A DNA stretch of 64,000 nucleotides from Anaerolineae bacterium (GTDB taxonomy: Bacteria > Chloroflexota > Anaerolineae > Anaerolineales > Villigracilaceae): contig JAKLPV010000070.1 in assembly GCA_022013685.1 (NCBI GenBank), positions 1 through 64,000 on the forward strand, written 5' to 3'. A program made the translations under genes and the position numbers. The stretch's first letter is position 1, and each line of letters begins with the position of its first letter. The notes beneath the pieces are model-generated. The model did not search any database. It was not told the DNA's origin and saw only the letters and a list, made by a program, of their open reading frames with translations. Positions 18,971 through 23,998 of this stretch are shown in pieces.

Positions 18971-20080
18971 ATGAAAAATGTTGCTGCGTTTCTCGATTCG
19001 ATGACCCGCCCGGCCCAACTGGTTGAGCGTTTGGGGAATAACGCAGTACGCTGCCTGGCCTGCGGGCATCGCTGCATCATCAAGCCTGGCAAACGCGGAG
19101 TTTGCCAGGTGCGCTTCAACGATGGTGATTCGCTGCGCGTACCCTGGGGTTATGTGGCCGCCCTGCAAGCCGATCCAATTGAGAAGAAACCCTTTTCGCA
19201 CGTTTTACCCGGCGCAATTGCACTGACCTTTGGCATGCTCGGTTGTGACTTCAAGTGCGGTTATTGTCAGAACTGGCTGACCTCGCAGGCTTTACGCAAT
19301 CCGGCTTCAGACGCGGCAGCCAACCTCGTCCGCCAGGTAACGCCCGAAGAAATTGTAGAAACAGCGCGGCGTATCGGGGCGGACGCATTGGTCTCGTCTT
19401 ACAACGAGCCGCTGATCACATCCGAGTGGGCGGTGGATGTTTTCCAGAAGGCCAGGGAATCCGGATTGAAATGTGCCTTTGTCTCGAACGGCAACGCCAC
19501 ACCTGAAGCGCTGGCTTACCTGCTGCCTTATCTCGATGCCTACAAGGTGGATTTGAAGTCCATGCGCCAGGAGACCTATCGCCAGTTGGGCGGCGCGCTC
19601 AAGCATGTGCTGGCAACCATCGAACAGGCCCACGCTCTCGGCCTGTGGGTGGAGGTGGTGACTCTGGTTGTGCCGGGACTGAACGACAGCAACGAAGAAT
19701 TTTGGGACACGGCTCGCTTCCTGGCCGGGGTCTCGCCTGATATTCCCTGGCATGTCAGCGCTTTTCACCCCGATTACCAGATGACCGCTCGCGATTTCAC
19801 TCCGCCCGAAAGCCTGGTGCGTGCTGCTGATATTGGGCGCGAGGCTGGGCTTCGTTACATCTATGCGGGCAACCTGCCGGGACGGGTGGGGGAATACGAA
19901 GATACCTTTTGCGCGGGCTGTGGGCGGGCGCTAATTCGACGCAGGCATTATGAAGTGCGCGAGTATCACCTGGATGGCTCAGGACGGTGCATGACTTGCG
20001 GCCTGCGCCTGCCCGGAATCTGGCCGAGTGACCCGCGCCAGGTACGGCTTAAGCAATCCTGGATTTCGAAATCAGACTGA
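18971..20080 (+). CDS. amrS: AmmeMemoRadiSam system radical SAM enzyme
   Basis: LGCDFKCGYCQNW CxxxCxxC motif; SYNEPLITSEWAVDVFQ; HVSAFHPDYQM. Confidence 0.9.
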   Translation: MKNVAAFLDSMTRPAQLVERLGNNAVRCLACGHRCIIKPGKRGVCQVRFNDGDSLRVPWGYVAALQADPIEKKPFSHVLPGAIALTFGMLGCDFKCGYCQNWLTSQALRNPASDAAANLVRQVTPEEIVETARRIGADALVSSYNEPLITSEWAVDVFQKARESGLKCAFVSNGNATPEALAYLLPYLDAYKVDLKSMRQETYRQLGGALKHVLATIEQAHALGLWVEVVTLVVPGLNDSNEEFWDTARFLAGVSPDIPWHVSAFHPDYQMTARDFTPPESLVRAADIGREAGLRYIYAGNLPGRVGEYEDTFCAGCGRALIRRRHYEVREYHLDGSGRCMTCGLRLPGIWPSDPRQVRLKQSWISKSD

Positions 20081-20087
20081 TTTGCTG

Positions 20088-20166
20088 TATAATTTGTATG
20101 CGCGCTTTTCGCCCAACCGGATGAACCTGAGAAAGCGCGCAAATGTTTGACATTTCAGGTTCATCC
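20088..20166 (+). promoter_or_regulatory. Promoter -10 plus structured 5' leader with pseudoknot topology
   Basis: TATAAT 20088-20093; GCGCGCTTT 20100-20108 pairs with AAAGCGCGC 20132-20140; GGATGAACCTGA 20119-20130 pairs with TCAGGTTCATCC 20155-20166. Confidence 0.65.
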
Positions 20167-20197: not shown

Positions 20198-21883
20198 GTG
20201 AAAAGTAAAATTCTTGTTTTGTTGTCCCTGCTTATGGTAGCCAGTATGTTGCTGGCTGCCTGCGGCGCTGCCGATCCTGGCGCTGGCCCTGAAGAAGAAG
20301 TAGCGGCCGGGCCTTTTGAGCCCAAGTCACTTGCGGCGGCTGATTGCGAATCGACCGGCATTATCAAGTCGGTTGTCGCCACTGACGAGCACACCGTGAC
20401 CTTCACGCTGTGCCAGTCTGACCCGGCTTTCCTTTCCAAAATCGCTTTCAGCCCCTTCGCCATCTATCCTGAAGAATGGATTGAGCGCACCCTGGGTGAG
20501 GAAACCCGCACCAGCGAAGGCCTCGAAAAGCCCGTTGGCACTGGCCCCTACATGGTTTCCGAATGGAAACGCGGTGATAGCGTCAACTTCACAGCCTTCC
20601 CTGATTACTGGGGCGAACAGCCTATCGCCAAGACTCTGGTCCTGCGCTGGCAGTCTGAAGCCGCAGCCCGCTTGCTCGAACTGCAATCCGGTACAGTGGA
20701 TGGTATCGACAATCTCGGCCCGTCCGACTTCGATGTTGTGCGCGCCGATTCGAACCTGACCCTGGTCGAACGCGAAGCTCTCAACATTTTCTACATTGGC
20801 ATGACCAACACCTTTGCCCCATGGGACAATGTCAAAGTTCGCCAGGCGATTGCCTATGGCATTGACCGCCAGCGTATCGTGGATAATTTCTACCCGGCTG
20901 GTTCAGAAACCGCTTCCCACTTCACACCCTGCGCCATCCCGAACGGCTGTGTGGGTGATGCCTGGTATGAGTTTGACGCCGCCAAGGGCCGTGAACTGCT
21001 GGCTGAAGCCGGCTTCCCGGATGGCTTTGCGACCAAGATTTACTATCGCGATGTTGTGCGCGGTTACCTGCCCCAGGTTCCCAATGTAGCCCAGGATGTC
21101 CAGGCCCAGTTGAAGGAAAACCTGAACATCGATGCTGAAATCGTTGTGATGGAGTCTGGTGCATTCATCGAAGCCTCGAACACCGGCCAGTTGGACGGCC
21201 TGTACTTCCTTGGTTGGGGCGCGGATTATCCGCATATCACCAACTTCCTCGATTTCCACTTTGGCGCAACCAACCCGCAATTTGGCGACGCCTTACCTGA
21301 GATTTACGAGAAGCTGGAAGAGGCTTCCAAGATCGCTGATCCCAAGGTGGCTGAACCTCTGTATGTTGAAGCCAACAACGCCATTCGTGAACTGGTTCCG
21401 ATGGTGGCTGTTGCCCATGGTGGTTCCGGCACGGCTTATCGCAATGATGTGACCGTCCCGCAGGCCAGCCCGCTGACCAATGAGCAGTTCGCTGTCTCTG
21501 ACCCCGGTGGCCGTGATGTGTTTGTCTTCATGCAGAACGCCGAACCCATCAGCCTGTTCTGCGCTGATGAAACCGATGGCGAATCGCTGCGCGCTTGTGA
21601 CCAGGTCATGGAAGCTCTCTATGGCTACGAAGTCAACGGCACCGCTGTTGTGCCGATGCTGGCTGAAGTCTGCGCCCCGAACGAAGACCTGTCTGTCTGG
21701 ACCTGCACCCTGCGTCAGGGTGTCAAATTCCACGATGGAACGACCTTTGATGCCAACGATGTGGTCACGACCTTCACCATGGGTCTGGATGTCACCTCGC
21801 CCCTGCACAAGGGCAACACCAACGTTTGGGATTACTATGGCTACTTGTGGGGCCTGATGAACGAGCCCCCTGCCGCCGAGTAG
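20198..21883 (+). CDS. ABC transporter substrate-binding lipoprotein (SBP_bac_5 type) with circularly permuted block order
   Basis: GTG start with AAGGAGGAG RBS; lipobox LLAAC; VGTGPYMVSEWKRGDSVNF...VRQAIAYGIDRQRIV precede QNAEPISLFCADETDGESL...RQGVKFHDGTTFDANDVVTTF. Confidence 0.9.
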   Translation: MKSKILVLLSLLMVASMLLAACGAADPGAGPEEEVAAGPFEPKSLAAADCESTGIIKSVVATDEHTVTFTLCQSDPAFLSKIAFSPFAIYPEEWIERTLGEETRTSEGLEKPVGTGPYMVSEWKRGDSVNFTAFPDYWGEQPIAKTLVLRWQSEAAARLLELQSGTVDGIDNLGPSDFDVVRADSNLTLVEREALNIFYIGMTNTFAPWDNVKVRQAIAYGIDRQRIVDNFYPAGSETASHFTPCAIPNGCVGDAWYEFDAAKGRELLAEAGFPDGFATKIYYRDVVRGYLPQVPNVAQDVQAQLKENLNIDAEIVVMESGAFIEASNTGQLDGLYFLGWGADYPHITNFLDFHFGATNPQFGDALPEIYEKLEEASKIADPKVAEPLYVEANNAIRELVPMVAVAHGGSGTAYRNDVTVPQASPLTNEQFAVSDPGGRDVFVFMQNAEPISLFCADETDGESLRACDQVMEALYGYEVNGTAVVPMLAEVCAPNEDLSVWTCTLRQGVKFHDGTTFDANDVVTTFTMGLDVTSPLHKGNTNVWDYYGYLWGLMNEPPAAE

Positions 21884-21971: not shown

Positions 21972-23054
21972 ATGATGCTGCAATATATCCTGCGCCGCTT
22001 ATTGTCTTCCATTCCTGTTCTGCTTGGCATTTTGTTGGTTACCTTTGCGCTGGCTCGCATGATCCCCGGCGACCCTTGTCGCGCCATGCTTGGCGAAAAA
22101 GCTACCGCGACCACATGTGAACGTTTCATGCGCGAGAAGGGACTTGACAAGCCCATCCACGAACAATTCTTTATTTACATGAAAGATGTTGCCAGGGGCG
22201 ACTTCGGCAATTCCATACGTTTCAGCCAACCCGTTACGCGTATCCTTGGCGAGCGCCTGCCCACCACGGTTGAATTAAGTTTTTCAGCTTTGTTTCTTAG
22301 TATGTTGGTGGGGATTCCGCTGGGAATCATTTCTGCCATACGTCATAATTCATGGGTCGACGTTGTAACCATGGTATGGGCCAATATCGGCGTTTCCATG
22401 CCGGTTTTCTGGCTGGGGCTGATGCTGGCCTTTGTTTTTTCCCTTCTATTTAAAGACACGTTTTTGTGGCTGCCTCCCTCTGGCCGGGTCAGCGCGGGGA
22501 TGGATACCACAGCATTTTACATTGCCTGGAAGTTAACCCTGCCCGAATCTGGAATTCTACGCAGCCTGGCTGAATTTATTGGCAGATTGAACATTCTCAA
22601 CTCGCTCCTGACCGGTAACTGGGAACTCCTGCGCGACTCCGTTCGCCACCTGATCCTCCCCTCGGTTGCCCTTGGAACCATTCCGATGGCCTTGATTGCC
22701 CGTATGACACGTTCCGCGATGCTCGAAGTGCTCGGTCAGGATTACGTCCGCACGGCGCGCGCCAAAGGTGTTCGATATAACAAGGTTATTATGAAGCACG
22801 CTTTTCGGAACGCGCTTTTGCCGATTACAACGGTTCTTGGCCTTTCGCTTGGCACTTTGCTCGGCGGCGCGGTCTTGACCGAAACCATTTTTGGGCTTTC
22901 AGGGGTTGGACGCATCCTGTACGAAGGCATTACGGCGCGTGATTATGCCATCATACAAGGCTTCACGATTGTCATTGCTGTCTTTTTTGTGGTGCTCAAC
23001 CTGCTTGTAGATATTTCCTACGCTTATATTGACCCGCGCATTCGCCTGAATTAA
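21972..23054 (+). CDS. Dipeptide/oligopeptide ABC transporter permease (DppB-like)
   Basis: MLQYILRRLLSSIPVLLGILLVTFALARMIPGDP; EAA loop GQDYVRTARAKGV. Confidence 0.93.
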   Translation: MMLQYILRRLLSSIPVLLGILLVTFALARMIPGDPCRAMLGEKATATTCERFMREKGLDKPIHEQFFIYMKDVARGDFGNSIRFSQPVTRILGERLPTTVELSFSALFLSMLVGIPLGIISAIRHNSWVDVVTMVWANIGVSMPVFWLGLMLAFVFSLLFKDTFLWLPPSGRVSAGMDTTAFYIAWKLTLPESGILRSLAEFIGRLNILNSLLTGNWELLRDSVRHLILPSVALGTIPMALIARMTRSAMLEVLGQDYVRTARAKGVRYNKVIMKHAFRNALLPITTVLGLSLGTLLGGAVLTETIFGLSGVGRILYEGITARDYAIIQGFTIVIAVFFVVLNLLVDISYAYIDPRIRLN

Positions 23055-23056
23055 CC

Positions 23057-23998
23057 ATGACAAACCAAATAACCCCAACTGTAGCAAAACTGGATGCCGA
23101 AGCGATTTCGCTCGAATCTGTCAGCTTGTGGAGCATCACCTGGAAGCGGCTTTTTAAACGCAAATCATCCCTGGTAGGAATTGGCATCATCCTGGCTTTG
23201 ATTGTGATTGCCCTGACCGCCCAGTGGATTGCGCCTTATGACCCCTTGCAGGTTTTGATCGGTATTGAAGATGTCAAAATGCGTGAAGCGCCGTGTATTC
23301 ACCTGTTTGGCTGTCCGCAAGAACAGCCCCAGCACATTATGGGCATCGACGGCAACGTCCGCGATCAGTTCAGCCGCCTGCTCTTTGGAACGCGCCTGAG
23401 CCTGATCGTTGGTTTCTCAACCGTTACCTTCGCGATCATCATCGGCACCGTTCTGGGCGCATTGGGCGGCTATTTTGGCGGCTGGATCGACAACACGATC
23501 ATGCGCGTCATGGATGTTCTGCTGGCCTTCCCCTCGCTTTTGCTTGCCATCGCTATCGTGACGGTGCTTGGCCCCGGGCTGATCAACGCTCTGCTGGCGA
23601 TCGGTATTGTCTCTATCCCGGCCTATGCCCGCGTAGTGCGCGCCAGCGTACTCTCCGTGCGCGAGATGGACTATGTTTCTGTCACCCGTGCTCTGGGCGG
23701 CGGAACCTTCCAGATCCTGTTTATCCGCATCATGCCCAATGCCCTGACCCCGCTCATCGTCCAGGGGACGCTCGGCATTGCGACCGCCATTCTCGACGCG
23801 GCAGCTTTGTCGTTCCTCGGCCTGGGCGCGCAACCGCCAACCCCCGAATGGGGCGCGATGCTTGGTTCGGAGCGTAACCAGGTTTTCACCGCTCCACACC
23901 TGGTTTTCTTCCCCGGTTTTGCGATCATGCTAACGGTGCTGGCCTTCAATCTGCTCGGCGACGGCCTGCGCGATGCGCTCGACCCGCGCCTGAGATAA
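23057..23998 (+). CDS. Dipeptide/oligopeptide ABC transporter permease (DppC-like)
   Basis: GTDGNVRDQFSRLLFGTRLSL-like segment; EMDYVSVTRALGG; AALSFLGLGAQPPTPEWGAML. Confidence 0.93.
   Translation: MTNQITPTVAKLDAEAISLESVSLWSITWKRLFKRKSSLVGIGIILALIVIALTAQWIAPYDPLQVLIGIEDVKMREAPCIHLFGCPQEQPQHIMGIDGNVRDQFSRLLFGTRLSLIVGFSTVTFAIIIGTVLGALGGYFGGWIDNTIMRVMDVLLAFPSLLLAIAIVTVLGPGLINALLAIGIVSIPAYARVVRASVLSVREMDYVSVTRALGGGTFQILFIRIMPNALTPLIVQGTLGIATAILDAAALSFLGLGAQPPTPEWGAMLGSERNQVFTAPHLVFFPGFAIMLTVLAFNLLGDGLRDALDPRLR

Follow-up and report, generated by a model that had tools for sequence, protein, structure and literature searches.

A naturally circularly permuted DppA-like substrate-binding lipoprotein encoded with DppB- and DppC-type permeases in Chloroflexota

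Circular permutants are usually known as isolated protein pairs. Circular permutation as such is well documented: natural cases have been reviewed (PMC3320104), and for PDZ domains four permuted forms occur (CIRPIN, PMC12667903). In the open-access literature searched, no published description of a naturally permuted family-5 substrate-binding protein (SBP) was found. For the dipeptide-binding protein DppA of E. coli it was reported that Arg383 binds the carboxylate and Asp436 the amino group of the dipeptide (PMC12136057).

The window, i.e., the whole analysed stretch of 64,000 nucleotides from an Anaerolineae bacterium (assembly GCA_022013685.1, contig JAKLPV010000070.1), encodes a lipoprotein of the same family, confirmed here as a DppA/SBP_bac_5 protein with a clean circular permutation. 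The gene, its parts and the adjoining permease genes are as follows.

20198..21883 (+), ORF of the permuted SBP, 561 aa, with a GTG start at 20198, AAGGAGG just before it and the stop codon at 21881-21883
20198..20263 (+), signal peptide and lipobox LLAAC (aa 18-22) with the putatively lipidated Cys22, read from the translation; a Cys and a signal sequence occur in nearly all full-length relatives
20264..20344 (+), linker after the lipid anchor, short and of low complexity, often with TEAP repeats in relatives; low pLDDT at mature residues 1-15
20345..21511 (+), main block, the normal middle and C-terminal part of the family (PF00496 about 62-365 and beyond; Pfam match at aa 53-359; blastp order test)
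20345..20413 (+), new N-terminal hairpin between Cys50 and Cys72, a Cys pair absent in canonical relatives
21059..21061 (+), Arg288, aligned with E. coli DppA Arg383 (PDB-chain alignment)
21224..21226 (+), Asp343, aligned with E. coli DppA Asp436 (PDB-chain alignment)
21500..21517 (+), junction linker DPGGRD leading from the former C-terminus to the former N-terminus (junction alignment; pLDDT about 97 in the surrounding block)
21512..21880 (+), N-block relocated to the C-terminal end, PF00496 2-49 and the preceding strand (Pfam, PDB-chain matches, blastp)
21972..23054 (+), DppB-type permease of the same operon (Pfam BPD_transp_1 and BPD_transp_1_N; synteny)
22494..22583 (+), extra stretch in the periplasmic loop of DppB, found in permuted operons only
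23057..23998 (+), DppC-type permease of the same operon (Pfam BPD_transp_1 and OppC_N; synteny)

An upstream TTG codon at 20147, given as the start in the ORF list, was considered unlikely to be the true start of the SBP. The signal peptide and lipobox, present also in the relatives, point at the sequence level to export and lipid anchoring. Just upstream of the SBP gene lies a radical SAM gene (18971-20080); in many relatives the corresponding position and strand are occupied by a gene of about that size, and the copy in locus L053 is clearly similar in sequence.

The Pfam search returned PF00496 in two stretches, profile positions 62-365 being matched by aa 53-359 and profile positions 2-49 by the downstream window region 21647-21790. 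The score of 251.3 bits, compared with the curated cut-off of 32.4, placed the protein in the SBP_bac_5 family, and the canonical N-block-first order of the chain was replaced by a permuted one. In a phmmer search of PDB chains, residues 13-117 of the GbpA/HbpA/DppA chains were aligned with query residues 450-547 and residues 124-479 with query residues 54-408. As these swapped two-part matches had E-values far beyond chance, the order of the chain is swapped. An alignment of the junctions with ten canonical relatives placed the new ends in a loop that spans about 6-12 residues in the canonical proteins; some 6 residues (DPGGRD) bridge the old termini. Every segment was present once, with none duplicated or lost, so the permutation is lossless; the kept cyclic order, the short linker and the existence of unpermuted homologues complete the picture of a natural circular permutant. 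The initial annotation, which had proposed the permuted order, placed the N-block at the end of the protein and located the breakpoint between GLMN and VVATD, within what is now seen as the short canonical loop, was right on each of these points.

The AlphaFold prediction for the mature protein, run with 37 sequences, had a mean pLDDT of 91.1 and a pTM of 0.87, with values of about 97 around the junction and below 50 only for the first 15 mature residues. The confident model predicts one complete fold, without the appended fragment for which a structure prediction had been advised as a check. Foldseek aligned it with DppA and GbpA at 2.0-2.6 Å over only 383-391 of 540 columns (TM 0.65), which is expected if the remainder is out of order. 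Longer in-order alignments had an rmsd of mostly 6-10 Å; given such large deviations beyond about 390 residues, no chain with the permuted order was found among the solved structures.

Homologues sharing the permuted order, for which a search had also been proposed, were found in independent genomes including those of isolates. A search covering the genus, family and order (41 genomes) added 28 relatives that matched colinearly over their full length (41-95% identity). The scan of 85,462 species, with one genome per species, yielded 478 relatives; the best 80 of the 478 were all from Chloroflexota and comprised the isolates Bellilinea caldifistulae GOMI-1 and Thermanaerothrix daxensis GNS-1. 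Reading of the matches in 399 sampled genomes of the phylum showed the permuted order in 57 among the matches listed. At the level of the order, 84 of 150 genomes had a match at E < 1e-60, and all but two of these 84 appeared permuted. In the tree, for which the permuted proteins were rearranged in silico, 33 permuted and 27 canonical proteins were located on separate sides of one branch (support 100/100), the permuted proteins forming one clade of single origin. Close pairs of permuted genes had dN/dS values of 0.02-0.10, the mark of strong purifying selection where tested. To look beyond the phylum, 72,556 plasmid records were searched by tblastn; the three matches inspected (Deinococcus H1, Thermomicrobium H5 and Phyllobacterium H16) were all canonical. 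Only 4 plasmid records reached 80% coverage with a query limited to the junction, and the best of them, H16, was rejected as a junction match, being a canonical gene start aligned via the signal region.

At almost every locus the permuted SBP gene is followed by DppB and DppC genes, to which many relatives add two ATPase genes of the oligopeptide type, giving a dppA-B-C(-D-F)-type operon. The window gene likewise stands beside DppB- and DppC-type permease genes, as in a Dpp-type importer. Its operon has no adjacent ATPase genes; 12 matches to the oligo_HPY family of ATPases were found elsewhere in the genome, and ATPases encoded there may serve the permuted importer. The extra DppB loop of about 20-30 residues was present in all 74 DppB proteins from permuted operons and in none of the 23 from canonical ones. 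A loopless DppB labelled as permuted turned out to belong to a second operon in L068. Arg288 and Asp343, the residues aligned with the pair that anchors the dipeptide ends in DppA, are widely conserved: Arg288 in 29 of 33 permuted and 22 of 27 canonical proteins, Asp343 in 30 of 33 and 25 of 27, respectively. With both conserved, peptides are the likeliest ligands, and a peptide substrate of the permuted SBP is suggested by these two residues and by the operon type.

Four cysteine pairs were nearly specific to the permuted proteins; in the window protein the predicted disulfides would link residues 50-72, 245-251, 455-467 and 492-503. Among 119 permuted sequences, three of the four pairs were present or absent together without exception, and disulfides are indicated by this joint gain and loss. 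The Cys50-Cys72 pair was intact in 117 of the 119, the other two having one Cys shifted by one column, and occurred in 0 of 27 canonical proteins; as a disulfide, it would staple the new N-terminus. Both the DppB loop and the cysteines may have arisen just once, on a single branch; their association with the permutation is thus an unreplicated correlation within a single clade and no proof of adaptation.

The window protein is very probably a lipid-anchored DppA-like SBP of an ABC importer with relocated ends, and a functional part of a peptide importer. The gene would go back to a single circular permutation at an early stage of this Chloroflexota lineage. A short turn would have come to connect the original N- and C-termini, the new ends would have arisen from a surface loop some 120 residues from the canonical start, and the relocated N-terminus would have acquired a signal peptide and lipobox. 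The resulting polypeptide would fold as an ordinary two-lobed family-5 binding protein with its binding site left intact, capture a peptide-like ligand outside the cell and hand it to its own DppB/DppC pair, the tether and the free ends having been shifted to another surface of the protein. The DppB loop and the Cys50-Cys72 staple may be adapted to the new geometry, and the geometry of docking between the SBP and its permeases is likewise a presumed one.

In several loci the permuted module was located in one ORF behind a domain of another SBP family: SBP_bac_3 (L086:519-2927, L109:7092-9548 and L146:6085-8529), Peripla_BP_6 (L097:6732-9587, L107:1-2328 and L145:5652-7988) or SBP_bac_1 (L029:1474-4344). 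Permease genes were found 3' of the fused gene in L107, L109, L145, L146 and L148, the last being a longer stretch around L029. These SBP-SBP fusions could possibly be subunits of two-headed importers; the predicted structure of the SBP_bac_3 fusion from L109 was poor (pLDDT 67, pTM 0.59). In L174 (4307-7117) a protein kinase domain precedes the permuted SBP_bac_5 in frame, next to a tandem plain SBP gene, and the fusion may possibly be a receptor kinase for the same ligand. A 933-aa frame in L144 was discarded as a fusion, being an open frame in GC-rich DNA with an internal signal peptide.

Orphan permuted SBPs that are divergent (about 28-33% identity) and lack neighbouring permease genes were observed in L139 (5733-7475), L175 (5862-7544), L176 (4759-6402), L177 (5645-7330), L178 (5319-7004) and L179 (5249-6898). 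In one family (L140:5116-8906, L141 and L142) a very divergent permuted SBP gene and a canonical one stand head to head, and the pair adjoins a canonical DppB gene where the contig reaches that far.

Other explanations of the permuted gene order were considered. The joining of two paralogues or of a rearranged contig during metagenome assembly might be suspected from the state of the window assembly, which is fragmented into 239 contigs with a contamination of 5.3%, but dozens of independently assembled genomes (41-95% identity) and also isolates show the same order and operon, and the dN/dS values are those of a maintained gene, so that an artefact deserves practically no credence. Only slightly more weight, and still very little, can be given to a partial tandem copy or decaying gene, in which a second SBP would have contributed the C-terminal block as an independent fragment and the N-block of the first would have been lost. 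Tandem SBP genes do exist (L136 and L194), yet each segment occurs exactly once with a tight junction, and the N-block is among the most conserved parts, confidently folded and under purifying selection. Improbable, though less so than these two, is an N-block that completes a neighbouring molecule, giving a domain-swapped dimer or a chain of SBPs instead of a permuted monomer. Such an arrangement would leave identical sequence evidence, and SBPs can swap domains in crystals, SP0092 being one example; it is at odds with the monomer model, confident throughout (pTM 0.87, junction pLDDT about 97), and with a linker of about 6 residues that joins two strands directly.

The protein might serve mainly for sensing or bind another ligand instead of importing peptides, and sensing roles are plausible for the orphan and kinase-linked permuted copies (L139, L175-L179 and the one protein kinase fusion). 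The missing ATPase genes beside the window operon would agree with such a role there as well. However, the window gene and most relatives lie directly 5' of a permease pair, often with two ATPase genes, the dipeptide-anchoring residues are retained, and the window genome has 12 matches to the right ATPase family at other sites. A main role other than peptide import is therefore judged unlikely, and peptide import by a permuted monomer remains the preferred reading.

The scan of 150 genomes of the order also revealed two genomes with matches 280-566 and then 53-304 in one reading frame. In both of these second-type (type II) genes (L172:5780-7519 and L173:4885-6618), which code for lipoproteins, segment 281-438 comes first, followed by the N-block and then by 44-273 (numbering of the window protein); the operon is ATPase-ATPase-SBP-DppB(-DppC). 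Type II was found in ten genomes of a single genus (including L172, L173 and L199-L204), another member of which keeps the order of the window protein (type I). Phylogenetically, type II is one clade (100/100) nested in type I, with 97/96 for the enclosing branch. Its internal junction runs from the type I C-terminus into the type I N-terminal segment (FGSFINAE...DGLLSLTAPDCEYGGEFKSIEA) and exceeds the canonical loop by about 20 residues. This fossil type I junction indicates that type II arose by fusion of tandem type I genes, an origin read from the sequences. Tandem type I pairs directly 5' of DppB/DppC were identified in L194 (4058-5746 and 6158-7876) and L136 (6038-7747 and 7791-9467); they resemble intermediates, since a further fusion and permutation would be expected to start from such an arrangement. 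The duplication/fusion route proposed in the initial annotation is not visible for the first permutation and is directly suggested for the second.

A wider, more tentative proposal is that of serial adaptive permutation. Tandem duplication and fusion would have re-cut the SBP in two or more rounds, from the canonical form to type I and on to type II; relocation of the N-terminus would have shifted the tether, been answered by the new DppB loop and the Cys staple, and made the N-terminus available for fusion with ligand domains or a kinase. This is a minority view here; if true, serial adaptive permutation yields two-headed importer subunits or receptor kinases. Within one lineage, the canonical order coexists with a permuted clade found across much of the phylum, with intermediate-like tandems and with a second permutant bearing a fossil junction, so steps of duplication and fusion can be studied in living genes. 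The permuted SBPs also offer a natural test of the tethering and orientation needed for docking on the permease, as well as natural scaffolds for permuted biosensors. Order-dependent annotation hides such a permutant, since Pfam and Foldseek each catch only part of the match.

The permuted SBP shares with DppA and GbpA (HbpA) of cluster C (PF00496) whole-length homology, a predicted fold core (2.0-2.6 Å, about 390 residues), the operon type and the dipeptide-anchoring Arg and Asp. It differs from them in the reordered chain, the lipid anchor on a different surface loop and the four extra cysteine pairs. The operon, like E. coli DppABCDF (PMC12136057), combines an SBP with DppB and DppC, and in many relatives with two oligopeptide-type ATPases, whereas the SBP is permuted, the periplasmic loop of DppB carries about 20-30 extra residues and the ATPase genes of the window genome are not adjacent. 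The two binding domains per chain in the SBP_bac_3, Peripla_BP_6 and SBP_bac_1 fusions recall the tandem SBDs of GlnPQ (PMC8025302); there both domains are linked to the transmembrane domain of the transporter, while here SBPs of other families are attached to the new N-terminus of the permuted SBP. With other natural permutants (PMC3320104, PMC12667903) the protein has in common the preserved cyclic order, the ends in a surface loop and a likely origin by duplication and fusion, but the permuted protein is here an ABC-importer SBP of more than 500 residues, and a further permutation has been superimposed on the first.
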